Source: Allosphingosinicella indica (lineage in GTDB: Bacteria; Pseudomonadota; Alphaproteobacteria; Sphingomonadales; Sphingomonadaceae). Taken from it: DNA of 64,000 nucleotides. Positions 1 through 63,372 of the stretch are shown piece after piece (position 1 is the first letter of the stretch; each line of letters opens with the position of its first letter). The DNA is taken from the NCBI RefSeq assembly GCF_900177405.1, contig NZ_LT840185.1, positions 1,355,501 through 1,419,500 of the forward strand, read 5' to 3'. Made by a program: the position numbers and the translations under genes. Under the pieces are notes generated by a model. It was not told where the DNA came from and did no database searches. It saw only the letters and a list, made by a program, of their open reading frames with translations.

Positions 1-1158
1 GGCGCCGAAATAGCGGACCTTGATGTCGGCATCGAGGAAGGCGGCGAAGGCGGGCATCAGCACTTCCACCATCGCCAGCGCGATCAGCATCGCGAGGAAG
101 GCGATGAGGATGGACTCGCCGATGAACTGGATGATGAGCTGACGACGCGCGGCGCCGAGCACCTTGCGGAGCGCCACCTCGCGCGCGCGCTGGCTGGCGC
201 GCGCGGTCGCGAGGTTGGTGAAATTGACCACCGCCATCGCCAGGATCAGCAGTGCGATGATGCCGAAGGTGACGATCGTCTTTCGGTCGTTGCCCGGCGA
301 CATCGCGCCTTCCTGCGCGCGACCGAGGTGGACGTCGCGGATGTTGACGACATGCCAGTCGCTGAAATCGCCGGCGTTGAACCGCGCCTCGCCGGCATTC
401 TGATCGGGGATGTTGCGCTTCTCCCAGGCGTGGAGCTGGCGCGTGATCGTCTCGGGATCGGCGCCGGGCTTGAGCTTCAGATAGACCCAGCCGCCCTGGC
501 AGCCCCAGCAATCGAGGAACTGCGGCTCGTTGGCCATGTAGGTGCCCATGTCGACGCGGACGATCGCATTGATCCGCATGTGCGAATTCTTGGGCAGGTT
601 CTGGAAGACGCCGCCGACCGGATAATCGGTGCGGATGCCCTTGGAGATCAGCGAGAAGGTCTTGCCGACCACATTGTCGGTGCCGAACCGCGCGACCGCT
701 TCGCTGCGACTTAGTAGGACGACATTGGGCCGGTCCAGCGCCGCCTTGTCGCCGTGCAGCATCGGCAGCGGCACGGTGTCGAGGAAGTTGTCGGCGACGT
801 AGATATAGTCCTTGGTCGAAGCCGCCTGTCCGTTCATGAACACCACGGGGGCGCTGAACAGCGCGTAGGTGGCGTTCTCGATCTGCGGGAAGTCCTTTTG
901 CAGCAGGCCTTTGGTGACATAGGGCGCCATCTGCACCTGGCCTTCCTCACCCGTGTCGGGATCGCGGAACCAGGTCTGGAACTGGTAGATGTTCTCCGCG
1001 CCCGGAACCCATTTGTCGTAGCTCGTCTCGTAGCGGACGAAGAGCAGGATCATCAGGCACGCGGCCATGCCGATCGCCATCCCGAAGATGGTGATGAAGC
1101 TGTACGTCTTGTGCTTGACGAGAGCGCGGACACCGGTGGTGAGATAGTTGCGCCACAT
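1..1158 (-). CDS. MacB/FtsX-type ABC transporter permease 1 (3' end outside window)
   Basis: The last visible gene of the leftward export operon; 386 codons are present and the frame is still open at the window edge. The start ATG at 1158 gives MWRNYLTTGVRALVKH, almost the same N-terminus as the three permeases upstream. One N-terminal membrane segment (about residues 18-41) is followed by a periplasmic core (MacB_PCD-like) and then the first FtsX unit with the family signature AREVALRKVLGA. By analogy with the neighbours the full protein should be about 830 residues with a second core plus FtsX unit. It starts 14 bases after the stop of permease 2, so it is co-transcribed. Proteins of this class carry no ATPase and must pair with a separate ATP-binding subunit; the only one nearby is at 9229-9927. 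The substrate is unknown. Confidence 0.9.
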   Translation of the reverse strand, partial: MWRNYLTTGVRALVKHKTYSFITIFGMAIGMAACLMILLFVRYETSYDKWVPGAENIYQFQTWFRDPDTGEEGQVQMAPYVTKGLLQKDFPQIENATYALFSAPVVFMNGQAASTKDYIYVADNFLDTVPLPMLHGDKAALDRPNVVLLSRSEAVARFGTDNVVGKTFSLISKGIRTDYPVGGVFQNLPKNSHMRINAIVRVDMGTYMANEPQFLDCWGCQGGWVYLKLKPGADPETITRQLHAWEKRNIPDQNAGEARFNAGDFSDWHVVNIRDVHLGRAQEGAMSPGNDRKTIVTFGIIALLILAMAVVNFTNLATARASQRAREVALRKVLGAARRQLIIQFIGESILIAFLAMLIALAMVEVLMPAFAAFLDADIKVRYFGA

Positions 1159-1171
1159 GCGTACATCCTCC

Positions 1172-3679
1172 CTATTCGTAACGGAGAGCGTGGATGGGGT
1201 TTGCGCGGGCGACGCGGATGGCGTGGCCGGAGACGGTGGCGATGGCGATGAAGAGGGCGAGCGCGCCGGCGAGCAGGAACGGCGTCGGCCCGAGCGCGAT
1301 GCGCGCGTCGAAGCTGTTGAGCCAGTCGCGCATCACCCACCACGCCACTGGCCAGGCGATCAGATTGGCGATGATCACCGGCTTCGAGAATTGCCAGGCG
1401 AGGAGCTGGACGATGTCGCGGACGCGCGCGCCGAACACCTTCCTGATGCCGATCTCCTTGGTGCGCCGCTCGGCGGTGAAGGCGGCGAGGCCGAAGAGGC
1501 CGAGGCAGGCGACGGCAATGGCGAGGATCGCGAAGCCGGCGAAGGTCTTCGCGCGCGCTTCCTCGGCATCGTAGAGCTCGGCGTTGATCTCGTCGCCGAA
1601 GCGCGCCTGGTAGGGGAGGTCGGGCGCGAAGCGCTTCCACAGCTCGCCGATGCGGCGGCGCACGCTTTCGGGATCGGCGCTGTCGTAGCGCACGACGATG
1701 TAATTGTTATATTCGCGGGCGAGCCGGTACATCATCGGCTCGAGCGGGATACGGATCGAGCGGAAGCGCGAATCCTGGACCACCCCGACGATCGTCACCG
1801 GCATCATCGGCATCGTGGGATCGAGGCTCACCGCGACGCGCACCTCCTTGCCCACCGCATCTGCCGGGTTGGCGAAGCCGAGCCGCCGCGCCGCGAGCTG
1901 GTTGACGATGACGTTGCCGCCGCGCTCGACGATCGCCCGCTCCGCCACCGGGTTAGGCGTCGGATAGGGCAGGCTCGTCTCGTCCATCGGCCGCGCGGCA
2001 TCGAAGTTGCGGCCCGCGATCAGGCGGACGCCCATCGTCGTGAAGAAATTCTCGTCGACCGGATAATTGCCGCTGGAGATGACGTCCGAGCGGCCGGGAA
2101 CGCGCACGCCGCGCCCCATCGTGCTGCTGGTGGAAACGCCGATGCTCGTCTTGGCGACTGAGCGCACGCCATCGATCCGCGCAATCTCCTTCGCGAGGCT
2201 GTCGAGCTGGGGGATCAGTCCGCGGTAGCCGGTCTCGAGCTGCAGCACGCCCTCGCGATCGAAACCGGGATCGGCAGTGCGCGCGTGAACGGTCTGTGCG
2301 TAGACGATCGCGGTGCAGATGATGAGGCCGTTGGAGACCGCGAACTGCGCCACCACCAGCGCGTTGCGCAGGCGGCCGCTGCCGGGCGTTTCCGCCGCGC
2401 TCTTGTTGGCACGAAGCACTTGCGCGGGCTGGAAGCGCGACAGGAAGAAGGCGGGATAGAGGCCGCCCGCCGCGCCGACGATCAACGTCAGGCAAACGAC
2501 CGGAAGAAGCACGCCGTCGCTGCCGAGATAGTGGAGCTGGAGATCGGCATCGAGAAAGGCGGCGAGGACGGGCAGCATCAGCTCGGCGATGCTGAGGCCG
2601 ACGATCGTGGCGAGCAGCGCGACCAGCATGGACTCGCCGAGGAACTGGACGATGAGCTGGCCGCGGCTGGCGCCGAGAACCTTGCGGAGCGCGACCTCGC
2701 GCGCGCGCTGGCTGGCGCGGGCGGTGGCGAGGTTGGTGAAGTTGATGCAGGCCATCGCCAGGATCAGCGCGGCCACCACGGCGAACGTGATGATGGTGGC
2801 GCGGTCGTTCCCCGGCCGCATCACCGCGCGGTCGGCCGCGCCCAGATGCACGTCGCGGACGTTGACCAGCTTCCAGTCCTGATCGGTGCCGGGATTCTCC
2901 ATGCGGTCGCCGAACGCCTGGTCGGGAATGTTGCGCTTCTCCCAGGCGGGGAGGCCCGCGCGGATCGCCTCGACATCCGCGCCGGGCCGCAGGCGGACGT
3001 AGTTCCAGCCGGAAATCTCGCCCCAGCTCGTCATGTAGCCGGGATAATCGGCGAAGATCCTGTTGAAATCGGAGCGGATCACCATGGTGAAGTTGAGGTG
3101 TGAATTTTTGGGGATGTCGCGCATCACGCCGGTGACGCGATAATCCACCCGCTCGCCGCGCTCGATCAGCGTCAGCGTCTTGCCGAGCGCGGACTCGTTG
3201 CCGAACAGGCGGCGCGCCTCGGTTTCCGAAAGCACGGCCGAATTGACCTCGCTGAGCGCACGCAGCGGATCGCCGGCGACAAAGGGCAGGCGGACGATGT
3301 CGAAGAATGGCCCATCGACGCGGATCGCATCCTCGACCTCCAGCGCCTCACCGCCGCTCAGCACGACGGGAGACGTGCCGCTGGCGTGGACGCGCGCCTC
3401 GATCTGCGGAAAATCCTTCTGCAGCGTCGTTCCCGCGACATATTGCGACATGCGCAGCTTGTATTCGTCGCCAGTCTCGCGGTCGGTGCTGAAGCTCTGC
3501 ACCTGATAGGTGCGCTCCGCGTCGGGAAGCCAGCGGTCGTAGCCCGTTTCGTAGCGGATATAGAGGATCAGCAGCAGGCAGGCGGCGATGCCGAGCGCAA
3601 GCCCCGCGATGTTGACCACCGCATAGGTGCGGTTCTTGAGCAGCGCGCGGATACCGACGGTCAGATAATTGCGCCACAT
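1172..3679 (-). CDS. MacB/FtsX-type ABC transporter permease 2
   Basis: 835 residues from ATG 3679. The frame is open 61 codons further upstream, but the family N-terminus MWRNYLTVGIRALLKN fixes this start. Architecture: membrane helix at about 18-41, MacB-like periplasmic core, FtsX unit 1 (AREVALRKVLGA), a second helix (RNALVVAQFAVSNGLIICTA), a second periplasmic core, and a C-terminal FtsX unit with ERRTKEIGIRKVFGA, ending in NPIHALRYE. This doubled layout is about twice the length of E. coli MacB permease domains and resembles Bacteroidetes-type permeases of this superfamily. It lies 14 bases after permease 3. Likely role: inner-membrane part of an efflux or envelope mechanotransmission complex; the substrate cannot be read from the sequence. 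Confidence 0.93.
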   Translation of the reverse strand: MWRNYLTVGIRALLKNRTYAVVNIAGLALGIAACLLLILYIRYETGYDRWLPDAERTYQVQSFSTDRETGDEYKLRMSQYVAGTTLQKDFPQIEARVHASGTSPVVLSGGEALEVEDAIRVDGPFFDIVRLPFVAGDPLRALSEVNSAVLSETEARRLFGNESALGKTLTLIERGERVDYRVTGVMRDIPKNSHLNFTMVIRSDFNRIFADYPGYMTSWGEISGWNYVRLRPGADVEAIRAGLPAWEKRNIPDQAFGDRMENPGTDQDWKLVNVRDVHLGAADRAVMRPGNDRATIITFAVVAALILAMACINFTNLATARASQRAREVALRKVLGASRGQLIVQFLGESMLVALLATIVGLSIAELMLPVLAAFLDADLQLHYLGSDGVLLPVVCLTLIVGAAGGLYPAFFLSRFQPAQVLRANKSAAETPGSGRLRNALVVAQFAVSNGLIICTAIVYAQTVHARTADPGFDREGVLQLETGYRGLIPQLDSLAKEIARIDGVRSVAKTSIGVSTSSTMGRGVRVPGRSDVISSGNYPVDENFFTTMGVRLIAGRNFDAARPMDETSLPYPTPNPVAERAIVERGGNVIVNQLAARRLGFANPADAVGKEVRVAVSLDPTMPMMPVTIVGVVQDSRFRSIRIPLEPMMYRLAREYNNYIVVRYDSADPESVRRRIGELWKRFAPDLPYQARFGDEINAELYDAEEARAKTFAGFAILAIAVACLGLFGLAAFTAERRTKEIGIRKVFGARVRDIVQLLAWQFSKPVIIANLIAWPVAWWVMRDWLNSFDARIALGPTPFLLAGALALFIAIATVSGHAIRVARANPIHALRYE

Positions 3680-3693
3680 GATCGTGCGGGCTC

Positions 3694-6183
3694 CTATTCG
3701 TAGCGCAGGGCGTGGATGGGGTTGGTGCGCGCGACGCGGATCGCGTGGCCGGAGATGGTGCCGAGCGCGATGACGAGCGCCAGGAAGCCGGCGAGGACGA
3801 ACGGTGTCGGCGTCAACGCGATGCGCGCATCGAACGTGTTCAGCCAATCGCGCATCACCCACCAGGCCACCGGCCAGGCGACGAGATTGGCGATCACCAC
3901 GGGCTTGGAGAATTGCCAGGCGAGAAGCTGGACGATGTCGCGCACCCGCGCCCCGAACACCTTGCGGATCCCGATCTCCTTGGTCCGCCGTTCGGCCGTG
4001 AAGGCTGCGAGGCCGAAGAGCCCGAGGCAGGCGACGACGATGGCGAGGATCGCGAAGCCGGCGAAGGTCTGCCCGCGCGCCCGATCGGTGCGGTAGAGTT
4101 CGGCGAGCTTCAGATCGGCGAGTTCGCCGTCATAGGGAACCTCGGGCGCGAGCCGTTTCCACACCTCGCCGATGCGCTGCCGGACGGCTTCCGGATCGGC
4201 GCTGTCGTACCGGACGATGAGATGGGAATAGATGCCGCGATCGTAGAACAATTGCGCTTCGAACGGCTCGCGGATCGAGCGGAAGCGGCTGTTCTCGACG
4301 ACCCCGACGATCGTTCCCGGCAGCAGGCCGATGTCCTCGCCGTAGAAATCGAGCCCCACGGTCTTGCCGATCGCGGCCGCCGGCTCGGCAAAGCCGAGCT
4401 GCTCCGCCGCCAGACGGTTGACCACGATATTGATCCCCCGCGCGACCATCGCGCGTTCCGCGGGCGCCACCGTTTCCTCGGGTTCATAGGGCGTCCACGC
4501 ATAATCCTGCGCATAACGCCGCGACAGCGTGCGCCCGGCGAGCAGCCGCGTGCCCAGGGTCTGGAAGAAAGAGGGCGTGACGCTGTAATTGCCGATCGTC
4601 ACCGGCTTGTCGCGGCCGGGCGCCATCACTTGCGAATTGGTGACGTTGTCGGTCGCCGGGACGATGCTCGTGGCGGCGACATCGGCCACGCCGTCGATGC
4701 GCTCGACTTCGCGGAGCAGCGTTTCGGTCACCGGGATCATCGCCGCGCGGTTCATGTTGCTGGCCACGATCAACCCGCCGTGCCGGTATCCTGGATCGGC
4801 GGATCGGGCGAACTCCGTCTGCAGGTAGACGATCGCGGTGCAGATGATCAGGCCGATCGAAACCGCGAACTGGCCGACGACCAGCACGTTGCGCAGCCGC
4901 CCCGTCCCGCTCGGCTCTGCCGACGAGCGATTGGCCTTGAGCACTGCGGCCGGCTGAAAGCGCGAGAGGTAGAAAGCGGGATAGAGCCCGCCCGCGATCC
5001 CGACGAACAGCCAGATGGCCACGATCTGCGGCAGCATGCCGTTCGCGCCGAGGTAGACGAGATCGAAGCCGGCGTTGAGGAAGCTGCGGAACATCGGCAG
5101 CGTCAGCTCCGCCACGGTCAGCGCGATCAGCATCGCGACGCCGGTCAGCAGCAGCGATTCTCCCAGGAACTGGAAGATCAACTGCCGCCGGTTGGCGCCG
5201 AGTACTTTCCTGAGCGCAACCTCCCGCGCGCGCTTGCTGGCACGGGCGGTGGCGAGATTGATGAAATTGACCGTCGCCATCGCGAGGATGAGCAGTGCGA
5301 CGATCGCGAAGGTGATGATCGTCCGGCGGTCGTTCACCGGCCGCTCGGGCTCGCCCTCCGCGCCGCTCAGGTGGACGTCGCGAATGTTGACGAGCTTCCA
5401 GTCGAAAGCGTCGCCCTCGCTGGTGCGGACGGTGCCGGCGAGCTGGACCGGGATGTTGCGCTTCTCCCAGGCCGGCAGGCCGCGGGTGATGTCGTCCGGC
5501 GACGCGCCCGGCTTCAGCTTGAGATAGACGTAGCCGTTGATGCAGCCCCAGCCGCATTGCTCGATCCGCTCCGGCGTGATCCGCGACACCATCTGCATTT
5601 CGATATTGCTGTTGCGCGGGATGTCCTCGAACACGCCGGTAATGCGCATGTCGCGACGCTCGCCCCTGATGATGCGGGAGATGGTTTTGCCGACGACGTC
5701 GGTGGTGCCGAACCGTCGCATCGCTTCGGAACGGCTGAGCACCAGCGTATCGACCGCGTCGATCGCCGTGTCGCGATTGCCGGCGATGAAAGGGAGCTGC
5801 AGGATGTCGAACAGGGTTGGATCGGCGAAATACACGTTGCCGTAGGTCGCCTCGCCATCCTGGACGAAGACCAGCTCGCTGGAGTCCGCGCGCGCGATCG
5901 CCTCGATCTGCGGGAAATCCTTGGCGAGGCTCTCGGCGATGACACCGTGGGACGCCTGGAGCGTCCGCACGTCTCCCGTCTCGGGATCGGTGCGAACGCT
6001 CTGAACCTGATAGATGCGGTCGGAATCGGGCAGCCAGGCGTCGTAGCTCGTCTCGTACCGGACGTAGAGCAATAGCAGCAGGCAGGCCGCCAGCCCGAGC
6101 GCGAGGCCGAGGATGTTGACCACGGCAAACGTCCGGTTCTTCGTCAGCGCACGAAGAGCGACCGTCAGGTAATTCTGCCACAT
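3694..6183 (-). CDS. MacB/FtsX-type ABC transporter permease 3
   Basis: 829 residues from ATG 6183 (MWQNYLTVALRALTKN). It has the same doubled core plus FtsX architecture as its neighbours: first helix at about 18-41, AREVALRKVLGA in the middle, a helix at RNVLVVGQFAVSIGLIICTA, and ERRTKEIGIRKVFGA near the C-terminus, ending in NPIHALRYE. The periplasmic cores differ most from those of permeases 2 and 4, as expected if the paralogues handle different ligands or form heterodimers. It is 38 bases downstream of permease 4 and 14 bases upstream of permease 2. Family membership is clear; transport function is inferred. Confidence 0.93.
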   Translation of the reverse strand: MWQNYLTVALRALTKNRTFAVVNILGLALGLAACLLLLLYVRYETSYDAWLPDSDRIYQVQSVRTDPETGDVRTLQASHGVIAESLAKDFPQIEAIARADSSELVFVQDGEATYGNVYFADPTLFDILQLPFIAGNRDTAIDAVDTLVLSRSEAMRRFGTTDVVGKTISRIIRGERRDMRITGVFEDIPRNSNIEMQMVSRITPERIEQCGWGCINGYVYLKLKPGASPDDITRGLPAWEKRNIPVQLAGTVRTSEGDAFDWKLVNIRDVHLSGAEGEPERPVNDRRTIITFAIVALLILAMATVNFINLATARASKRAREVALRKVLGANRRQLIFQFLGESLLLTGVAMLIALTVAELTLPMFRSFLNAGFDLVYLGANGMLPQIVAIWLFVGIAGGLYPAFYLSRFQPAAVLKANRSSAEPSGTGRLRNVLVVGQFAVSIGLIICTAIVYLQTEFARSADPGYRHGGLIVASNMNRAAMIPVTETLLREVERIDGVADVAATSIVPATDNVTNSQVMAPGRDKPVTIGNYSVTPSFFQTLGTRLLAGRTLSRRYAQDYAWTPYEPEETVAPAERAMVARGINIVVNRLAAEQLGFAEPAAAIGKTVGLDFYGEDIGLLPGTIVGVVENSRFRSIREPFEAQLFYDRGIYSHLIVRYDSADPEAVRQRIGEVWKRLAPEVPYDGELADLKLAELYRTDRARGQTFAGFAILAIVVACLGLFGLAAFTAERRTKEIGIRKVFGARVRDIVQLLAWQFSKPVVIANLVAWPVAWWVMRDWLNTFDARIALTPTPFVLAGFLALVIALGTISGHAIRVARTNPIHALRYE

Positions 6184-6221
6184 CGCCGCCTACTCCCCGT
6201 TTGGCGTTTCTCTTGTCGTTA

Positions 6222-8723
6222 CTATTCGTATCTGAGTGCGTGGATCGGATTGGCGCGGGCGACCTTCAGCGCGTGGCCGGCGATCGTCCCGATCGCGATG
6301 GCGAGCGCGAGCACGCCGGCGAGCAGGAAGGGCCCGGGCCCGAGGTCGATCCGCGTGTCGAAGCTGTTGAGCCAGTCGCGCATCGCCCACCAGGCGACCG
6401 GCCAGGCGATGAGGTTGGCGATGATCACCGGCTTCGAGAACTGCCACGTCAGCAGCCGCACGATGTCGCGGCTGCGCGCGCCCAGCACCTTGCGGATGCC
6501 GATCTCCTTGGTGCGCCGCTCGGCGGTGAAGGCGGCGAGGCCGAACAGGCCCAGGCAGGCGACGATGACCGCGAGGACCGCGAAGGCGGCAAAGATCTGC
6601 GCGCGCGCCGATTCCGCTTCGTACAGCTCGCGCACGATATCCTCGCTGAACTTGCCGTCGAACGGCACGTCGGTCGCAAGCTGGCGCCACGTGTTCTCGA
6701 GCGCCTGCATCACCGCACGCGGATCGCTGGTGTCGTAGCGCACGATCATCGCGCCCGTGTCGGCCTTGGCGAGGCGGAACATGATCGGATCGAGCGGCTG
6801 ACGGATCGAGCGGAAGCGCGAATCCTGGACAACGCCGATGATCGTCGCGGGTAGACGGCCGCCATATTCCTCACGCGTGGTGAGGTTGACCTGCTTGCCG
6901 ACCGCTTCGCGCGGGGTGAAGCCCAGCCGCTTGGCGGCAAGCTCGTTGATGACGATGTTGGAGCCGCGTGCGATCAGCGCCCGCTCCGCAGCTTCATCTT
7001 CCGGGAAGGGCGTCTGCGAATCGTCCGCCGGACGGTTCTCATCGAACTGCCGGCCGGCGATCACCTTAACGCCCATCGCATCGAAGAAGCCGGCATCGAC
7101 GGCGTAATTGCCGATCGTTGCGGGTTCCTCGCGCCCAGGCACCTGGACGCCGGTGTTCATGTTGTTGCGGGTCGCGATGCCGATCGCGGAGCGGCCGACC
7201 GCGACGACGCCCGGCACGCGCTTCATCGCTTCGACGATCGAATCCGCGCGCTCGGTGAGCTGGCGGCGGCCGATGCTCTCGACCTGGATCAGCCCGTCGC
7301 GATTGTAGCCGGGATCGGCGGTCTGTGCGTAGACCGTCTGCGCATAGACGACGGCGGTGCAGATGATGAGGCCGATCGAGACGGCGAACTGGCCGACGAC
7401 CAGCACGTTGCGCAGCCGCCCAGTGCCGGAGGCTTCCGCCGCCGACTTGTTGGCCTTCAGCACCTGTGCGGGCTGGAAGCGCGAGAGATAGAAGGAGGGG
7501 TAGATCCCGCCCGCCGCGCCGACCAACAGCACCAGCCCGATGATCGGCAGGATGAGGCCGTTGGCGCCGAAATAATGAAGCTCCAGATCGGCGTCGAGGA
7601 AGGCGGAGAGGCCCGGCAGCGCCAGCTCGACCAGCGCCAGCGCGACGCACATCGAAAGCGCGGCGACCATGATCGATTCGCCGAGGAACTGGAGGATGAG
7701 CTGCTTGCGGCTGGCGCCCAGCACCTTCCTCAGCGCCACCTCGCGCGCCCGCTGGCTGGCGCGGGCAGTAGCGAGATTGGTGAAGTTGACACAGGCCATC
7801 GCAAGGATCAGCGCCGCGACGATGGCGAAGGTGGTGATGCTCCGCGCGTCATTGCCCGGCCGGGTCGCGCCGGACTGCGCTTCGCCCAGGTGGACGTCGC
7901 GGATGTTGACGAGGTTCCAGTCCTGGTCGTCGCCCGAATTGGTGCGGCGGCCGTCGAACACCTGATCGCGGATGTTGCGCTTCTCCCACGCGGGCATCTG
8001 CGCCTGGATGCTCTTCGGGTCGGTGCCGGGCTTCAGCGTGAAATAATACCAGCCGGACTGCCAGTCGAAGCTGTCGAGGAAGTCGGGCTGGTCGGCGAAA
8101 TAGCTGACCGGATCGAACCGCGCGACGAGGCTGAACTTGGTGTGGCTGTTCTTGGGGATGTCCTTCATCACGCCGCCGATGCGGTAATCGAGCTGGCGGC
8201 CGCCGGTGACGATGGTCATCGTCTTGCCGAGCGCCGGGCCGTCGCCGAACAGGCGCTTTTTCTCGGTCTCGCTGATCACGGCGTCACCGGGCTTGGCGAG
8301 CGCGGTCATCGGATTGCCCTCCACCAGCGGATATTGCAGCACGTCGAAGAAGCGGTCGTTGACGAGGAACGCCTGATCGATGGTCAGCGCCTCGCTGCCC
8401 TTCATCACCACCGGCGACGCGCCGAGCGCGTAGACGCCCTTGTCGACCTGCGGGAAATCGCGCTTTAGCGCGGCGCCCGAGGAGAATGACGTCATCTGGA
8501 GATTCATCGTCTCCCCGGTCTCGCGCGAAGTGTACCAGGCTTGGAGCTGGTACGTGTTCTCGGCATTGGGAAGCGTCTGGTCGTAGCTCGTCTCGTAGCG
8601 GACGTAGAGCAGGATCATCAGGCAGGCGGCGAGGCCGATGGCGAGGCCGAAGATGTTGATGAAGGCGTAGGTCTTGTTCTTCGCCAGCGCCCTCAGGCCC
8701 ACCGTCACATAATTGCGCCACAT
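6222..8723 (-). CDS. MacB/FtsX-type ABC transporter permease 4
   Basis: 833 residues from ATG 8723 (MWRNYVTVGLRALAKN), the first permease of the operon. It has an N-terminal helix, periplasmic core, FtsX unit (AREVALRKVLGA), second helix (RNVLVVGQFAVSIGLIICTA), second core and final FtsX unit (ERRTKEIGIRKVLGA), ending NPIHALRYE. It sits 20 bases downstream of the RidA-like gene. The conserved intracellular loop that contacts the ATPase is intact in both FtsX units. It probably works with the ATPase at 9229-9927 and the membrane-fusion protein at 9924-11234. Which permeases pair with each other is not visible. Confidence 0.93.
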   Translation of the reverse strand: MWRNYVTVGLRALAKNKTYAFINIFGLAIGLAACLMILLYVRYETSYDQTLPNAENTYQLQAWYTSRETGETMNLQMTSFSSGAALKRDFPQVDKGVYALGASPVVMKGSEALTIDQAFLVNDRFFDVLQYPLVEGNPMTALAKPGDAVISETEKKRLFGDGPALGKTMTIVTGGRQLDYRIGGVMKDIPKNSHTKFSLVARFDPVSYFADQPDFLDSFDWQSGWYYFTLKPGTDPKSIQAQMPAWEKRNIRDQVFDGRRTNSGDDQDWNLVNIRDVHLGEAQSGATRPGNDARSITTFAIVAALILAMACVNFTNLATARASQRAREVALRKVLGASRKQLILQFLGESIMVAALSMCVALALVELALPGLSAFLDADLELHYFGANGLILPIIGLVLLVGAAGGIYPSFYLSRFQPAQVLKANKSAAEASGTGRLRNVLVVGQFAVSIGLIICTAVVYAQTVYAQTADPGYNRDGLIQVESIGRRQLTERADSIVEAMKRVPGVVAVGRSAIGIATRNNMNTGVQVPGREEPATIGNYAVDAGFFDAMGVKVIAGRQFDENRPADDSQTPFPEDEAAERALIARGSNIVINELAAKRLGFTPREAVGKQVNLTTREEYGGRLPATIIGVVQDSRFRSIRQPLDPIMFRLAKADTGAMIVRYDTSDPRAVMQALENTWRQLATDVPFDGKFSEDIVRELYEAESARAQIFAAFAVLAVIVACLGLFGLAAFTAERRTKEIGIRKVLGARSRDIVRLLTWQFSKPVIIANLIAWPVAWWAMRDWLNSFDTRIDLGPGPFLLAGVLALAIAIGTIAGHALKVARANPIHALRYE

Positions 8724-8743
8724 GATCCTTCGATCCTTCTAAT

Positions 8744-21667: not shown

Positions 21668-23818
21668 TTATTCGAACTCGACGATCACCGCATCGACGGC
21701 GAGGCTGTCGCCCGGCTTGGCGGCCACCGCCTTGACCGTGCCGGCCTTCTCGGCGCGCAGGATATTCTCCATTTTCATCGCCTCGACCACCGCCAGCGGC
21801 TGGCCCGCCTCGACGCTGTCGCCAGCGTTGACGTGGAGCGCGGTCAGCAGCCCCGGCATTGGGCAGAGCAGGAATTTGGAAAGATCGGGCGGCACCTTCT
21901 CGATCATGTGGCGGCTGAGTTCCGCGACATGCGCGGGGAGCACGTCAACGACATGGCTGGCGCCACGCGCGGTCAGCCGCCACTGCCGGCCGCGTCGCGC
22001 GATCTGGACGATATGCTCGCGCCCGTCGACGCTGCCCTTGAAGCGGAGCTGGCCGGGCGCCCAGACGCCGATCACCTCATGCGGCTGTTCCTCGCCCGCG
22101 CGGCGGATCAAAGTCGCGCCCTCGGCATCGGCGACGGTCAGCCGATGCTCGCTCCCGGCGATGCGGACGACACGCTCGCCCACTGCTGGCGGCGCGCCGT
22201 TGAGCTGGCCGGCGATCGATCCGGCGCGCCGGTCAGTCTCATGCCCGATCAGCGCCGCGATCACCGCGAGATCGGCGATCAGTTGGTCGGATGGCGGCGC
22301 GCCAGTGAAGCCTTCGGGATATTCCTCGGCGATGAAGCCGGTGGTGATGTTTCCCGAGCGGAAGCGCGGGTGCTGCATCAGCGCGGACAGGAAGTCGATA
22401 TTGTGGCCGATGCCGTCGATGCGGAACGCGTCGAGCGCGCGGATCTGTCGGTCGATCGCGCCCTCGCGGGTCGGCGCCCAGGTCACGAGCTTGGCGATCA
22501 TCGGATCGTAGAACATCGAAACTTCGCCGCCTTCGACCACGCCGTCATCGACGCGGGTGCGAACCTCCCCTCCCGCTTGCGAGTGCTGGTTGAACCGCGC
22601 CCCGCGCGGCTCAGGCTGTGCCGGGGGCACAGCCGACCCAGCACTGGGCCGGGGGAGGGCTTGTTCCCCACTTCCAGACAGTCCCTCCCCTGGCCCCTCC
22701 CGCAAGCGGGAGGGGGAAGTCTGGGGTGGTCGATAATGCACCAGCCTCCCCGTGCTCGGCAGGAAGCCGCGATAGGGATCTTCCGCATAGACGCGGTTCT
22801 CGATCGCCCAGCCGGTGAGCGTGACATCGTCCTGGGTGAACGCCAGCTTTTCTCCGTAAGCGACGCGGATCATCTGCTCGACGAGATCGAGCCCTGTCAC
22901 CTCCTCGGTCACCGGATGCTCGACCTGGAGCCGGGTGTTCATCTCGAGGAAGTAGAAGCTCTCGCCCGTCGTGTCGGCGCCGGAGACGATCAGTTCGACG
23001 GTGCCCGCCGAATAATAGCCCACCGCCCGCGCCAGCGCGACGGCCTGCTCACCCATGGCCTTGCGCATCTCGGGCGTCACGAAGGGCGACGGCGCTTCCT
23101 CCACCACCTTCTGGTGGCGGCGCTGGATCGAGCATTCGCGCTCGCCGAGATAGACGATGTTGCCGTGCTGATCGCCGAGCACCTGGATTTCGATATGGCG
23201 CGGGCTCTCGATGAATTTCTCGATGAACACCCGGTCGTCGCCGAAGCTCGCCAACCCCTCGCGCTTGGTCGCCTCGAAGCCCTCGCGCACGTCCTGCTCG
23301 CTCCAGGCGAGGCGCATGCCCTTGCCGCCGCCGCCGGCGCTCGCCTTCATCATCACCGGATAGCCGATGTCGGAGGCGATCTTCACCGCCGCGTCGGTGT
23401 CCGCGATCTCGCCGAGATAGCCGGGGACGACGTTGACCCCCGCTTCCTTCGCCAGCTTCTTCGATTCGATCTTGTCGCCCATCGCGGCGATGGCGTTGGG
23501 CGGCGGCCCGATGAACGCGATGCCCGCGTCGGCCAGCGCCTTGGCGAAGCTCTCGCGCTCGGAAAGGAAGCCGTAGCCGGGATGCACCGCCTCGGCGCCG
23601 GTCGCCTTGCAGGCGTCGATGATCAGCTCGGCCTTCAGATAGGATTCGGCGGCCGGCGGCGGGCCGAGCCGCACGCTCTCGTCGGCCAGGCGGACATGCG
23701 GCGCGCGCGCGTCGGCATCCGAATAGACGGCGACCGTCTTGATGCCCATGGCCCGCGCCGTGCGGATGACGCGGCAGGCGATCTCGCCCCGGTTCGCGAT
23801 CAGGATCTTCTTGAACAT
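21668..23818 (-). CDS. pccA: Propionyl-CoA carboxylase alpha subunit (biotin carboxylase and biotin carrier), with in-frame repeat insertion
   Basis: 716 residues. Biotin carboxylase N-domain (MFKKILIANRGEIACRVIRT), ATP-grasp with KASAGGGGKGMR, and the catalytic region EMNTRLQVEHPVTE. The C-terminal biotinyl domain has K682 in EAMKMEN. Residues about 368-418 ([12 protein letters not shown] through QAGGEVRT) have no counterpart in the family and are encoded by a palindromic repeat at 22564-22716; the normal sequence resumes at VDDGVVEGGEVSMFYDPM. The insert lies in the biotin carboxylase C-domain and probably forms a surface loop. With pccB (29681-31213) it carboxylates propionyl-CoA to methylmalonyl-CoA. 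A methylcrotonyl or acetyl-CoA role is less likely given the mutase and epimerase next door. Confidence 0.93.
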   Translation of the reverse strand: MFKKILIANRGEIACRVIRTARAMGIKTVAVYSDADARAPHVRLADESVRLGPPPAAESYLKAELIIDACKATGAEAVHPGYGFLSERESFAKALADAGIAFIGPPPNAIAAMGDKIESKKLAKEAGVNVVPGYLGEIADTDAAVKIASDIGYPVMMKASAGGGGKGMRLAWSEQDVREGFEATKREGLASFGDDRVFIEKFIESPRHIEIQVLGDQHGNIVYLGERECSIQRRHQKVVEEAPSPFVTPEMRKAMGEQAVALARAVGYYSAGTVELIVSGADTTGESFYFLEMNTRLQVEHPVTEEVTGLDLVEQMIRVAYGEKLAFTQDDVTLTGWAIENRVYAEDPYRGFLPSTGRLVHYRPPQTSPSRLREGPGEGLSGSGEQALPRPSAGSAVPPAQPEPRGARFNQHSQAGGEVRTRVDDGVVEGGEVSMFYDPMIAKLVTWAPTREGAIDRQIRALDAFRIDGIGHNIDFLSALMQHPRFRSGNITTGFIAEEYPEGFTGAPPSDQLIADLAVIAALIGHETDRRAGSIAGQLNGAPPAVGERVVRIAGSEHRLTVADAEGATLIRRAGEEQPHEVIGVWAPGQLRFKGSVDGREHIVQIARRGRQWRLTARGASHVVDVLPAHVAELSRHMIEKVPPDLSKFLLCPMPGLLTALHVNAGDSVEAGQPLAVVEAMKMENILRAEKAGTVKAVAAKPGDSLAVDAVIVEFE
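22564..22716. repeat. Palindromic double-hairpin repeat, copy 1 (inside pccA)
   Basis: Left arm CCTCCCCTCCCGCTTGCG (22564-22581) and right arm CGCAAGCGGGAGGGGG (22701-22716) are inverted copies. Between them is the sequence shared with the bioB copy (GGGGGAGGGC, TTCCCCA, CCCTCCCCTGGCCCCTCCCGC). The left hairpin is broken by the nested element at 22582-22645. The whole repeat is read in frame on the minus strand as part of pccA. Confidence 0.9.
22582..22645. mobile_element. 64-base nested palindromic element inside repeat copy 1
   Basis: Compared with the bioB copy, 64 bases replace 4 in the left hairpin, a net gain of 60 (20 codons, in frame). The insert is bounded exactly by a perfect 8-base inverted repeat, AGTGCTGG (22582-22589) and CCAGCACT (22638-22645). 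Inside are two perfect hairpins: CCGCGC-ccc-GCGCGG (22595-22609) and GGCTGTGCC-ggg-GGCACAGCC (22614-22634). The cloverleaf-like outline looks like a small non-autonomous mobile palindrome. Confidence 0.65.
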
Positions 23819-23857: not shown

Positions 23858-24676
23858 CTACTCCGGACGGGGGAAGAGCGCCTGCAGCGCGTCCCACGCC
23901 GTCGGGTGATAGATGGTCGCGTGGCTGAGCGCCGGACGCGGCTCCCAGTGCAGCTCCAGCGCAGTGCCCCGCGCACGCAGCGCGGCGGCGAGCCGGTCGG
24001 CGAAACGCGGCTGCTGCAGCGTCTCCTTGCCGATGCTGATCCAGACGCGCGGCTTCCCCTTCGCCGGGTGCGCCGCGAGCAGACCCGCCGCCTCGTCGGT
24101 CAGCCGCCCGTCGTCCCACCACAGGCTCGGGTCCATCGCGATATAGGTGTCGAAGGCGTCGGGCGTCTTGAGCAGCGTCTCGACGATGAACAGCCCGGCG
24201 AGCGACTCGCCGATCAGCACGTCCTCGCCGGATGTGCGATAGCGCGCTTCGACCATCGGCTTCACTTCGTCGATGAGATAGCGGCGGAAGAGGTCCGACG
24301 ATCCCGCCGTCGGATATTCCGCGCGCAGCTTCGCGTCGCGTTCGACGGGAAAGGCGAGCTCGCGGCGCCGATCGACCGTCTCGACGCCGACCACGATGAA
24401 CTCCTGCGTCAGCCACGAGATCGCCCCGAGCTGCGCCAAGCCGGAGATGTGGTGGAAGTCCTGCGCCATCCCGCCGTCGATCAGGTAGAGAACCGGATAG
24501 CGCTGCTCGCCCTTCGCATAGGACGGCGGCGTCCAGACGTTCACCGTCCGCTCGCCGCCCAGCGCTTTCGACGCCAGCGCATAAGCCTCGCCGATCACGA
24601 TCGGCTTCGCCACCGGCTCCGCGATCGCGGGCGTCGCGAGAAGCAGCGTGGCGAGGAGAAGCAGCAAGCGCCTCAC
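23858..24676 (-). CDS. Secreted alpha/beta-hydrolase esterase (PF00756-like)
   Basis: 272 residues. GTG 24676 overlaps the bioB stop as GTGA; the much longer frame upstream is a bioB shadow. Signal peptide at about 1-20 ([16 protein letters not shown]). The serine nucleophile lies in IGESLAGLF, with the acidic residue probably in the DPSLWWDD region and the histidine in ALSHATIYH. Domain and size resemble IroE/Fes-type siderophore esterases and other putative esterases. If the neighbouring TonB receptor imports a siderophore, this could hydrolyse it, but a general carboxylesterase is equally possible. Confidence 0.85.
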
Positions 24677-25746
24677 GCCGCCGCCATCGCCGTCAGCCCC
24701 AGCCGTGCGAACAGCGCCGCGTCCTTGTCGTCGCCGGCGTTGGCGGCGGTGAGGAGCTTGTCGCCGGTGAAGATTGAATTGGCGCCGGCAAGGAAGCAGA
24801 GCGCCTGCGCCGCGTCGCTCATGCTCTCGCGGCCCGCGGAGAGGCGGACCATGCTCGCCGGCATCGTGATCCGCGCGACCGCGACCGTGCGGACGAACTC
24901 GATATCGTCGATCTTGGCGAGCGGCGTGTCGGCCAGCATGTCGCCGAGCACGGTGCCCTTCACCGGCACCAGCGCGTTGATCGGCACCGATCCGGGATGT
25001 TCGGGCAGTGTCGCCAGCGCATGGAGGAAGCCGATGCGGTCCTCGCGCGTCTCGCCCATGCCGACGATGCCGCCGCAGCAGACGTTGATCCCTGCGGCAC
25101 GGACATTCTCCAGCGTCTCCAGCCGGTCGGCGAAGCTGCGCGTGCCGATCACCGCGCCGTAATTCTCCGGCGAGGTGTCGATATTGTGGTTGTAATAATC
25201 GAGCCCCGCCTCGGCCAGCGCGTCGGCCTGCGCCTCGGTCAGCATGCCAAGCGTCATGCACGTCTCCATCCCCATCGCGCGGACGCCCTTCACCATCTCG
25301 GCGAGCGCGGGGATGTCGCGATCCTTGGGGTTGCGCCACGCAGCGCCCATGCAGAAGCGGGTTGAGCCATGGTCCCGCGCCTGCGCCGCGGCCTGCAGCA
25401 CCGCGCGCACGTCCATCAGCTTGGTCGCCTTGATCCCGCTCTCGGCATGGACCGACTGCGAGCAATAGCCGCAATCCTCCGGGCAGCCGCCGGTCTTGAT
25501 GCTGAGCAGGGTCGAAAGCTGCACCGCATCCGGCGCGTGATGCGCGCGGTGGACCTCCGCCGCGCGGAAGACGAGGGCGGTGAAAGGGAGATCGAAGAGG
25601 GCGGTGATTTCGGCGCGGGACCAGTCGGTGCGCAGCTCCCCTCCCGCTTGCGGGAGGGGATGGGGGAGGGCCTGTTCCCCAACCCCGGGCATTCCCTCCC
25701 CTGGCCCCTCCCGCAGGCGGGAGGGGTATTTCGTCATCGTCGTCAT
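24673..25746 (-). CDS. bioB: Biotin synthase with repeat-encoded N-terminal extension
   Basis: 357 residues. A radical-SAM enzyme that inserts sulfur into dethiobiotin. SAM cluster cysteines C88, C92 and C95 (CPEDCGYC), with KTGG just before; conserved [11 protein letters not shown] and C-terminal [16 protein letters not shown] 25746 overlaps the stop of the small membrane-protein gene as ATGA. Residues about 8-37 ([11 protein letters not shown] through LPQAGGE) come from the palindromic repeat at 25636-25727. The normal BioB N-terminus begins near TDWSRAEI. It supplies biotin to the PccA carrier domain encoded two genes downstream. Confidence 0.95.
25636..25727. repeat. Palindromic double-hairpin repeat, copy 2 (5' coding end of bioB)
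   Basis: Two perfect 22-base hairpins: 25638-25659 (CCCCTCCCGC-TT-GCGGGAGGGG) and 25705-25726 (CCCCTCCCGC-AG-GCGGGAGGGG). They flank 45 bases containing GGGGGAGGGCCTG and CATTCCCTCCCC. This is the uninterrupted form of the repeat in pccA, and it is read in the same frame, giving closely similar peptides. It begins only 6 codons into bioB. Confidence 0.92.
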
Positions 25747-34901: not shown

Positions 34902-35007
34902 CCCTCCCCCCTTGTGGGGGAGGGTAGGGAGGCGGGTGCCGTCCAAAGGACGGCGCGCAGCTTCGCTGCGCACCCCCACCCCAGCCCCTCCCCGCAAGGG
35001 GGAGGGG
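34902..35007. repeat. Palindromic double-hairpin repeat, copy 4 (phoH-ybeY gap)
   Basis: Left hairpin CCCTCCCCCCTTGTGGGGGAGGG and right hairpin CCCCTCCCCGCAAGGGGGAGGGG. Between them are smaller hairpins (GCCGTCCAAAGGACGGC and GCGCAGCTTCGCTGCGC). It fills nearly all of the gap between two genes of one operon, so it must be transcribed and may tune expression or mRNA stability. Confidence 0.88.
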
Positions 35008-45234: not shown

Positions 45235-45320
45235 CGTCACCCTGAACTCGTTTCAGGGTCCATGTTGGGGACGGTCGCAGACTTCATCGAGATGGATGCT
45301 GAAACAAGTTCAGCATGACG
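45235..45320. repeat. Double stem-loop intergenic repeat, type B copy 1
   Basis: Outer ends CGTCA and TGACG pair. Hairpin 1 is ACCCTGAA-ctcgt-TTCAGGGT and hairpin 2 is ATGCTGAA-acaag-TTCAGCAT. Located just after rpoN. Two more copies are at 55530-55615 and 63251-63335. May act as a terminator or mRNA-stabilising element. Confidence 0.9.
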
Positions 45321-45388
45321 GTCCGAGATGGACGACCGCGAAACCCCGATCTTGCGATTGTCATAGCCTTGGTGAAGGGGTGGCGGCG

Positions 45389-55529: not shown

Positions 55530-55615
55530 CGTCACCCTGAACTTGCTTCAGGGTCCATCTCGGAGACGGTCCCGATCGTCATCGGGATGGATGCTGAAAC
55601 AAGTTCAGCATGACG
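55530..55615. repeat. Double stem-loop intergenic repeat, type B copy 2
   Basis: ACCCTGAA-cttgc-TTCAGGGT and ATGCTGAA-acaag-TTCAGCAT inside CGTCA/TGACG ends. It lies between the convergent pheT and cca stops, where a two-way terminator would be expected. Middle section contains CCCGATCGTCATCGGG, an extra small hairpin. Confidence 0.9.
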
Positions 55616-55642
55616 GATGATGGGGGTCGGGCGCCGCGTCGA

Positions 55643-57444: not shown

Positions 57445-57628
57445 CCGCCGCGCCTTAGCGGAGACGCTGCCATAATCGCAAACGCCGTCCGTGATGTCCT
57501 GCAGCCCCGATTTCTGCGACAATCCCCGCGTTCAGCTCTTTTCTATCGTTCGCAGTCGTAGGCCGCGCGAACCCGCCGTCCGCACCCTCCATGGCCAGTG
57601 CGAACATTGGGACCTTTCGCGCCTTAAG

Positions 57629-57734
57629 CCCTCCCCCTTGATGGGGGAGGGTTGGGTGGGGGTGGAGGTTGAGAAGTTAGCACCTTATTCGGAGACGCCA
57701 CCCCACCCCAACCCCTCCCCATCAAGGGGAGGGG
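57629..57734. repeat. Palindromic double-hairpin repeat, copy 6 (overlaps 3' end of the DUF1285 gene)
   Basis: Left hairpin CCCTCCCCCTTGATGGGGGAGGG and right hairpin CCCCTCCCCATCAAGGGGAGGGG. In between, GGGTGGGGGTGG and CCACCCCACCCC face each other. The last codons (Ser-Pro-Ser-Pro) and TGA stop of the DUF1285 gene fall inside the right hairpin. Confidence 0.9.
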
Positions 57735-58297
57735 CTACCAGTCAGCGCGAAGAAAATACCGTCGCTCCACAGTCCAGGCGTGTCACCGCCGTCGGCGATC
57801 GCCATCTCCGCCAGCTCGTAATAGACCGGCCGTGCGACCAGCGCCTCCAGCCCGCCGCGGACGTGAAGATAGGGGTGCGGCCCGTCCTCGCGCGCATCGA
57901 AGCGCAGGCGATGCTCCGGCCCCGCCACCACGACGTCGCCGGTGTTGAGCCGAAAGGCGAGGCGGCGGGCGTCGCCCTCGCCCTCGCTCTTCACTTCGAC
58001 CGCGACGAAGGCGGCGTCCTCGACTTCGATGTCGAGCTTCTCGACCGGGGTCACCAGCACGTGCCGCCCGTCGGGCTCGCGGCGGAGGATGGTCGAGAAC
58101 AGCCGCACCATCGCCGGGCGGCCGATCGGCGATCCTTCGTGATACCAGGTGCCATCGCGTGCGATCCGCATCGCGCTGTCACCGCAATGCGCCGGGTTCC
58201 ATTTGTCGACGGGGGGCAGCTTCTTCGCCTCCGCCAGCGCGGCGATGTCGGCGAGGCTGAGGCCGGCGAGATCGGCGGGCGGTTCGTCCATCGGCAT
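57722..58297 (-). CDS. DUF1285-family protein
   Basis: 191 residues from ATG 58297 (MPMDEPPADLAGLSLADIA; ATG 58291 is possible). Conserved family features WNPAHCGDSAMRIARDGTWYHEGSPIGR and MVRLFSTILRRE. No known biochemical function. The C-terminal Ser-Pro-Ser-Pro and the stop codon are supplied by the adjacent palindromic repeat. Confidence 0.88.
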   Translation of the reverse strand: MPMDEPPADLAGLSLADIAALAEAKKLPPVDKWNPAHCGDSAMRIARDGTWYHEGSPIGRPAMVRLFSTILRREPDGRHVLVTPVEKLDIEVEDAAFVAVEVKSEGEGDARRLAFRLNTGDVVVAGPEHRLRFDAREDGPHPYLHVRGGLEALVARPVYYELAEMAIADGGDTPGLWSDGIFFALTGSPSP

Positions 58298-63231: not shown

Positions 63232-63250
63232 GGCGGCGATACCAACAATC

Positions 63251-63335
63251 CGTCACCCTGAACTTGTTTCAGGGTCTCCATGGAGAAGGCCGTAATCGTC
63301 ATCGAGATGGATGCTGAAACGAGTTCAGCATGACA
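63251..63335. repeat. Double stem-loop intergenic repeat, type B copy 3
   Basis: ACCCTGAA-cttgt-TTCAGGGT and ATGCTGAA-acgag-TTCAGCAT, same layout as the copies at 45.2 and 55.5 kb. Sits between the exb terminator and the M24 peptidase gene, about 38 bases before its ATG. Confidence 0.9.
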
Positions 63336-63372
63336 GGCAACGGGCTTGGCCCGCACCGAAAGGGGACATTGG

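Follow-up and report, generated by a model that had tools for sequence, protein, structure and literature searches.

The gene for the propionyl-CoA carboxylase alpha subunit (pccA) of Allosphingosinicella indica carries, in frame, a composite palindromic insert of two elements, a dispersed hairpin doublet (element A) and a second, three-stem element (element B) nested inside it. The loop that holds them, predicted to be disordered, is occupied by palindromes again and again in related Sphingomonadales. The reading that we consider likely is that these are selfish palindromes that survive where their insertion keeps the frame and a flexible loop can take it without harm, and that they arrive recurrently at a small number of tolerant loops.

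Within the window (the whole 64,000-nucleotide stretch of the genome that was analysed), pccA is an open frame of 716 codons at 21668-23818 on the minus strand, and a search with its C-terminal 299 residues (E ≤ 1e-90) finds one copy in the genome. The insert lies at 22564-22716 (minus strand; codons about 368-419); followed codon by codon, it runs from about S368 (22717) to E418 (22565), and the frame stays open through it with no stops. Its sense strand folds at -120.7 kcal/mol, compared with a mean of -86.4 for shuffled sequences (z -6.9; 0 of 200 shuffles as low). The initial annotation had proposed a palindromic, in-frame insert at residues about 368-418 of a protein that remains open and keeps its biotin site. 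The open frame and the fold bear this out, as do the biotin-carboxylase N, ATP-grasp, biotin-carboxylase C, PCC_BT and biotinyl domains and the AMKM biotin motif, all of which are present.

A clean gap in aligned homologues had also been anticipated, and the comparisons agree with it. The loop has 59 residues in A. indica (G000 in our genome set) but 13 in its supported sister pair in the PccA tree, G025 and G009, whose PccA is in each case 88% identical outside the loop; at the insert position their loops read RPPQEGRGPELRT and RPPAEGRNEDLRT. When PccA was compared with solved PccA chains by phmmer, the alignment split in two at the insert; in the two best chains, it breaks off after query residue 387 or 369 and resumes at 415 or 420. 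In an alignment of 35 PccA proteins, all runs of at least 10 residues in columns less than half filled fall in the insert loop, and the only other runs of at least 5 residues are 5 and 7 residues long. Visual comparison with the short G025 and G009 loops showed no target-site duplication, but these loops have themselves diverged, with about six codons differing. The AlphaFold2 model of PccA (built from 35 sequences; mean pLDDT 80.7) has the PCC holoenzyme 3n6r as its best PDB match. Residues 374-416 have pLDDT values below 50, blocks 361-370 and 421-430 have values of 85, and the low-scoring segment is flanked by strands 361-363 and 420-425 of the biotin-carboxylase domain. The insert is therefore predicted to be a disordered loop joining two strands of this domain, in line with the loop that the initial annotation had envisaged.

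Element A consists of two inverted CCCCTCCCGC-NN-GCGGGAGGGG hairpins with complementary inner segments, which together make one long hairpin; it is REPIN-like. In pccA, the first hairpin (CCCCTCCCGCTTGCGGGAGGGG on the sense strand) lies at 22694-22715, and the second is split into a left remnant (GGCCC on the sense strand, 22646-22650, with exact ends inferred from the intact bioB copy) and a right part (CGCAAGCGGGAGGGG on the sense strand, 22567-22581), all on the minus strand. Judged against an intact arm, about four bases appear to be missing at the junction, and the net addition by element B would be about 60 bases, with the frame kept. Across the 2.81-Mb genome, the hairpin core occurs at 35 places (≤2 mismatches), as opposed to 1 for the reversed pattern. 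By our grouping, these hairpins form 14 close pairs and 7 singles, or 21 family-A places, of which 5 are in frame inside genes and 1 is in the bioB N-terminus; the other 15 seem, by eye and from stop-to-stop frames, to be intergenic or at gene edges.

The bioB copy is the second family-A doublet of the window and is intact (25639-25726, minus strand). It sits in frame between the ATG of bioB (24673-25746) and the first conserved residues. The segment from the doublet to those residues contains no ATG, GTG or TTG in frame, so translation probably includes this palindrome unless it starts at a CTG. The initial annotation had also placed copies of the pccA repeat between genes elsewhere in the window. 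The same family does recur, once, at this 5′ end of bioB, but the intergenic-looking palindromes at 34902-35007 and 57627-57736 belong to a related but different class. These are paired CCCTCCCC-type palindromes, of a class that also occurs at the PccA loop of G011 and several Sphingomonas. In addition to pccA, family A is in frame in uvrA, valS, carA and an acyltransferase E2 linker of A. indica, the last (G000:C1:1825775-1825888, L099) between the lipoyl and E3-binding domains. The peptide is PSRLREG or PSREREG in pccA, bioB, uvrA and carA of A. indica and PLPQAG in valS of the same genome and in carA of G001 and G017, and no one conserved peptide runs through the coding copies. A protein-coding design of family A was considered and rejected, since 15 copies have 3.4 open frames each and shuffled versions 3.2, about as many as base composition predicts.

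Among the 26 genomes of the genus, the A hairpin (≤1 mismatch) is present in 10-21 copies in 9, in 1-7 copies in 10 and absent from 7. G018 and G011 are among these 7 and yet have other palindromes at the PccA loop. A search of the A. indica genome for PF01797 (Y1-type transposase) gave 0 matches, which rules out a resident RAYT. The family was matched in 3 of the 9 A-rich genomes and in 8 of the 17 others, and is thus not commoner where A is abundant. Therefore, a RAYT currently present does not explain element A, and its movement, presumably by transposition, may have depended on a mover that was lost or on one of another kind.

Element B (64 nt; 22582-22645, minus strand; PccA residues about 392-413) lies in the second hairpin of A and folds alone into an outer stem and two inner hairpins. 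A search with the nested piece gave matches at E ≤ 0.01 in 16 of 60 genomes (A. indica and 59 relatives), several of the weakest of which were judged spurious (L292-L296, L298 and L300). A 22-row alignment (A2) was picked by hand from these matches, together with stretches from G024 and G003 and the locus L245; L305, L306 and L311-L313 were left out. Within these 22 hand-chosen copies, 94.9% of cells form the pairs of the three-stem structure, changes fall on both sides in 21 of the 28 pairs (120 two-sided versus 8 one-sided cells), and sliding the pairing partners lowers pairing to 31-41%. G-U steps are scarce in the stems, which suggests that the pairing acts at the DNA level.

A covariance model of element B matched 22 of the 26 genomes of the genus at E ≤ 0.01, although the weaker matches may be due to chance, and it found 4 copies in A. 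indica at the same threshold. The pccA copy, itself one of the model's own rows, scored 82.3 bits over 22579-22645 (3 flanking bases included). Reading of the flanks placed a palindrome half-arm next to each of the four copies. Of 102 model matches, 81 were used further, the 21 dropped rows being places already listed with a different locus id, reverse-strand readings of an element already counted, or second copies in one stretch. Element B often lies inside other repeats: when the flanks were rejoined without B, 55 of 81 copies matched continuous sequence elsewhere in the DNA examined across the junction, compared with 18 of 200 control sites, and 26 had no such match; the 81 copies are not independent, because copies within G024 share flanks. 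Under permissive scoring, the figure rose to 61 of 81, but so did that of the controls (61 of 200). The joined flanks folded at z ≤ -2 in 30 of 81 cases and 9 of 141 controls, which is only partly better than the controls, and the longest stem crossing the junction hardly differed (mean 6.2 versus 5.7). In G024 (L297, L283, L301-L303), element B and its host palindrome occur with the same flanks at several places, as if copied together. In the PccA of Sphingomonas sp. isolate Bin.002_Pasture (L245), B is nested in a different palindrome in the same loop. Against Rfam, the window gave 8 matches at E ≤ 1, all far under the gathering cut-offs, and 8 further stretches containing B had no match at E ≤ 0.1. 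Tentatively, and with rather less confidence than we attach to survival at tolerant loops, element B could be an undescribed mobile element, a shape-specified 64-nt three-stem DNA junction that, because its stems change in Watson-Crick pairs, would probably be recognised as folded single-stranded DNA, and that parasitises other palindromes. Together with A, it would use a few loops of central or essential enzymes as safe landing sites, where unrelated palindromes succeed one another at the same residue across the order.

To place the insert among its relatives, PccA loops were read in 25 of the 26 genomes of the genus (L046, with a loop of 9 residues, by separate reading), in five other genomes of the family and at 80 named-record loci, which are the best 80 of at least 591 and not a random sample. 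Of 111 loci, 5 were not read by pattern (L046, L205, L223, L236 and L280) and 2 were copies, leaving 104 distinct loops. Their lengths fall into two separate groups, 85 with 9-28 residues and 19 with 37-72 residues, with none between. All 19 long loops are palindromic (z -2.9 to -10.9 against mononucleotide shuffles), and all match DNA outside PccA loops among the loci examined, L203 and L230 at one such place each; the match counts exceed the number of places, as loci overlap. Beyond what the initial annotation described, then, the insert is two nested elements and the same loop holds palindromes in 18 further PccA proteins. The idea of an insert private to this species is ruled out by the palindromes that relatives carry in the same loop.

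Read as DNA, the 19 long loops appear to represent at least four unlike classes of palindrome. One comprises hairpins of the CCCTCCC type, family A among them; two others are of the GAGCGAAGTCGA and GGCGGGGATCC types; and G024 has another, of the CTACTCAGGATGAGC type. Classes A, C, G and H have CCCTCCC words in common and were not separated cleanly by patterns; fuzzy family words likewise failed to separate the C-rich classes and matched a few short loops too. Three genomes of the genus, G018, G024 and G011, each carry a different palindrome at this loop. Even at closer range, L245 and L248, whose PccA proteins are 96.8% identical outside the loop, differ in this respect, the former having class C with B and the latter class A. 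On a PccA tree built without the loop (99 rows, 18 with inserts), the presence of an insert requires 14 changes, and well-supported branches make no fewer than 12 of these unavoidable, with gain and loss not distinguished. Shuffling the loop labels gave a mean of 16.8 changes, with 15 of 500 shuffles as low, and the label is thus slightly clustered. The initial annotation had named homologues with the same residues as evidence that would speak against an insertion. Such homologues do occur, family A being present at the PccA loop of Sphingomonas pruni and Sphingomonas sp. BT553, with a remnant in BIN22, but the insert-free sister pair and the 12 or more forced changes argue for recurrence and not for an ancestral part of the enzyme.

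The main rival starts from the same data. Repeated gene conversion or replacement could have exchanged a single ancient insertion in the PccA loop for the palindromes prevalent in each lineage, and most lineages could have lost it. The four A copies in PccA loops (A. indica, S. pruni, BT553 and the BIN22 remnant) share the same frame and lie within about one codon of each other, which would fit this history, and both the blindness of parsimony to gain versus loss and the clustering on the tree leave room for it. We nevertheless regard it as unlikely, since most loops (85 of 104), including those of the supported sister pair, are short, start points differ by up to about 12 residues between species, and the sequence classes are, on our reading, at least four.

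Survival at tolerant loops, the preferred explanation, would proceed as follows: (i) element A, a non-autonomous REPIN-like palindrome, enters the biotin-carboxylase domain at a flexible hairpin loop without shifting the frame; (ii) element B, a palindrome defined by its structure, then inserts into the second arm of A; and (iii) about 50 disordered residues are thereby added to an enzyme that presumably still works. The PccA loop would be one of few tolerant landing places in the Sphingomonadales, along with loops of ValS, CarA and UvrA, and different palindromes would reach these loops repeatedly, while selection would purge copies that are out of frame or misplaced, so that the survivors look like a hotspot. 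Survival of this kind would explain why unlike palindromes share one loop, why their starts vary and why the frame of A differs between genes.

Other readings give the insert, or its absence from the protein, a greater part. The initial annotation described the insertion as tolerated or used. Tolerance fits the data, whereas use, such as a part in regulating the carboxylase or in binding a partner, lacks support and strikes us as improbable: the gene has a single copy in the genome and the insert in it is indeed kept open, but different species have unlike sequences at the same loop, the open frames of A are about as many as base composition predicts, and the AlphaFold2 model predicts disorder there. 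We presume that the insert has no function. Still less probable is that the hairpin is removed or skipped in expression, by RNA processing or ribosome bypass, to give a protein without the insert. The RNA fold is very stable, but a frame kept free of stops would be needless if the segment were removed, and the PccA, uvrA, valS and carA inserts of other species are also in frame and free of stops, although the reading patterns would miss loops with stops. We presume that the insert is translated. Palindromes are hard to assemble, but an assembly artefact is hardly credible for a single-contig genome listed as 100% complete, and many independently assembled genomes have comparable inserts in this loop.

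The other genes with in-frame family-A copies were compared across the genus in the same manner, and the same valS and carA loops hold other or separately placed palindromes. Counting this genome and taking identical duplicates once, 5 of 23 distinct valS loops have at least 30 aa (44-51 aa; others 9-24), as do 5 of 22 distinct carA loops (36-52 aa; others 10-14); 2 of 30 valS, 4 of 30 carA and 7 of 30 uvrA loci were not read. In uvrA, the base loop is long already (at least 37 aa in 17 of 17 read), and a palindrome word was present in 13 of 17 distinct loops, on permissive patterns and hence as weaker evidence. The valS and carA loops thus behave like the PccA loop, and uvrA does so less clearly. 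In carA, family A is read in the PSREREG frame in A. indica and in the PLPQAG frame in G001 and G017; because the reading frames differ, the insertions look independent.

Rickettsia palindromic elements (RPEs) and intragenic REPs are prior art for in-frame palindromes. As described in the available text of the reports on RPEs (Ogata et al.; PMC2229807, PMC10969869, PMC3733652), these are palindromes of about 105-150 bp found in frame in genes for conserved proteins of an alphaproteobacterium, and an RPE-bearing guanylate kinase was reported to be translated and active (PMC2229807). The PccA palindrome is likewise in frame within a conserved gene of an alphaproteobacterium, and the initial annotation was right to see the same principle in another host. 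Here, however, the host, which its neighbours mark as a relative of Sphingomonas, belongs to another order, the sequence is GC-rich, the frames of family A differ between genes where RPEs, as presented there, encode one conserved peptide, and a second element is nested within the first, with different families recurring at the same loops. Intragenic GTAG/CGTC REP monomers and dimers, including some in uvrA of other taxa, have also been described (PMC3733652), as have REPs in tRNA synthetases of X. oryzae, E. lithoralis and S. alaskensis (names as used in that paper) and different REPs at about one site in recB of two Xanthomonas species. Family A differs from these, in that no GTAG or CGTC tag was found within 8 nt, on either strand, of any of 32 family-A type hairpins from the window and stretches of this genome. 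The accessible part of the same paper does not treat pccA, valS and carA loops across one bacterial family or the nested element B, although its supplementary gene list may hold some of these genes.

REPINs, according to the consulted portion of PMC3116915, are pairs of inverted REPs that fold into a single long hairpin, about 100 nt in length, and are dispersed as a unit; their definition refers to extragenic space, and a link to RAYT genes was made. Element A resembles them in its two inverted hairpins and in the close pairs found at 14 of its 21 places; it differs in that the pccA copy lies inside a gene, in a genome with no PF01797 match. Insertion into a palindrome is known from IS elements that target REPs and break the palindromes at about one point (excerpts of PMC1525189), but element B is a gene-less, 64-nt element of paired stems and not an IS. 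The words 'intragenic', 'in-frame' and 'nested' were not found in the available text of a 2025 REP survey (PMC12306157), and among the matches listed from the open-licence PubMed Central literature no paper dealt with the PccA loop or element B.

Taken together, these loops provide a natural series of one enzyme in which the same place is free of inserts in some species and holds inserts of unlike sequence, or nested ones, in others, including species as close as 96.8% PccA identity outside the loop. Such a series makes it possible to test how selfish palindromes that have no evident transposase spread, and by what route they become part of proteins. The comparison also marks the PccA, ValS and CarA loops, and probably that of UvrA, as sites that accept some 25-50 foreign residues, and a covariance model is now available for a nested element that has no Rfam match.

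Two further kinds of repeat were observed in the window. Another dispersed inverted repeat, CGTCACCCTGAACT..TTTCAGGGTC .. GCTGAA..AGTTCAGCATGACG, has three copies, apparently at gene edges (45235-45321, 55530-55616 and 63250-63336), and this CGTCACCCTGAACT-type repeat starts with CGTC, like the CGTC-tagged REPs. Positions 1-8724 hold four tandem copies of a unit of about 2.5 kb that are 62-85% alike and are apparently paralogous genes.
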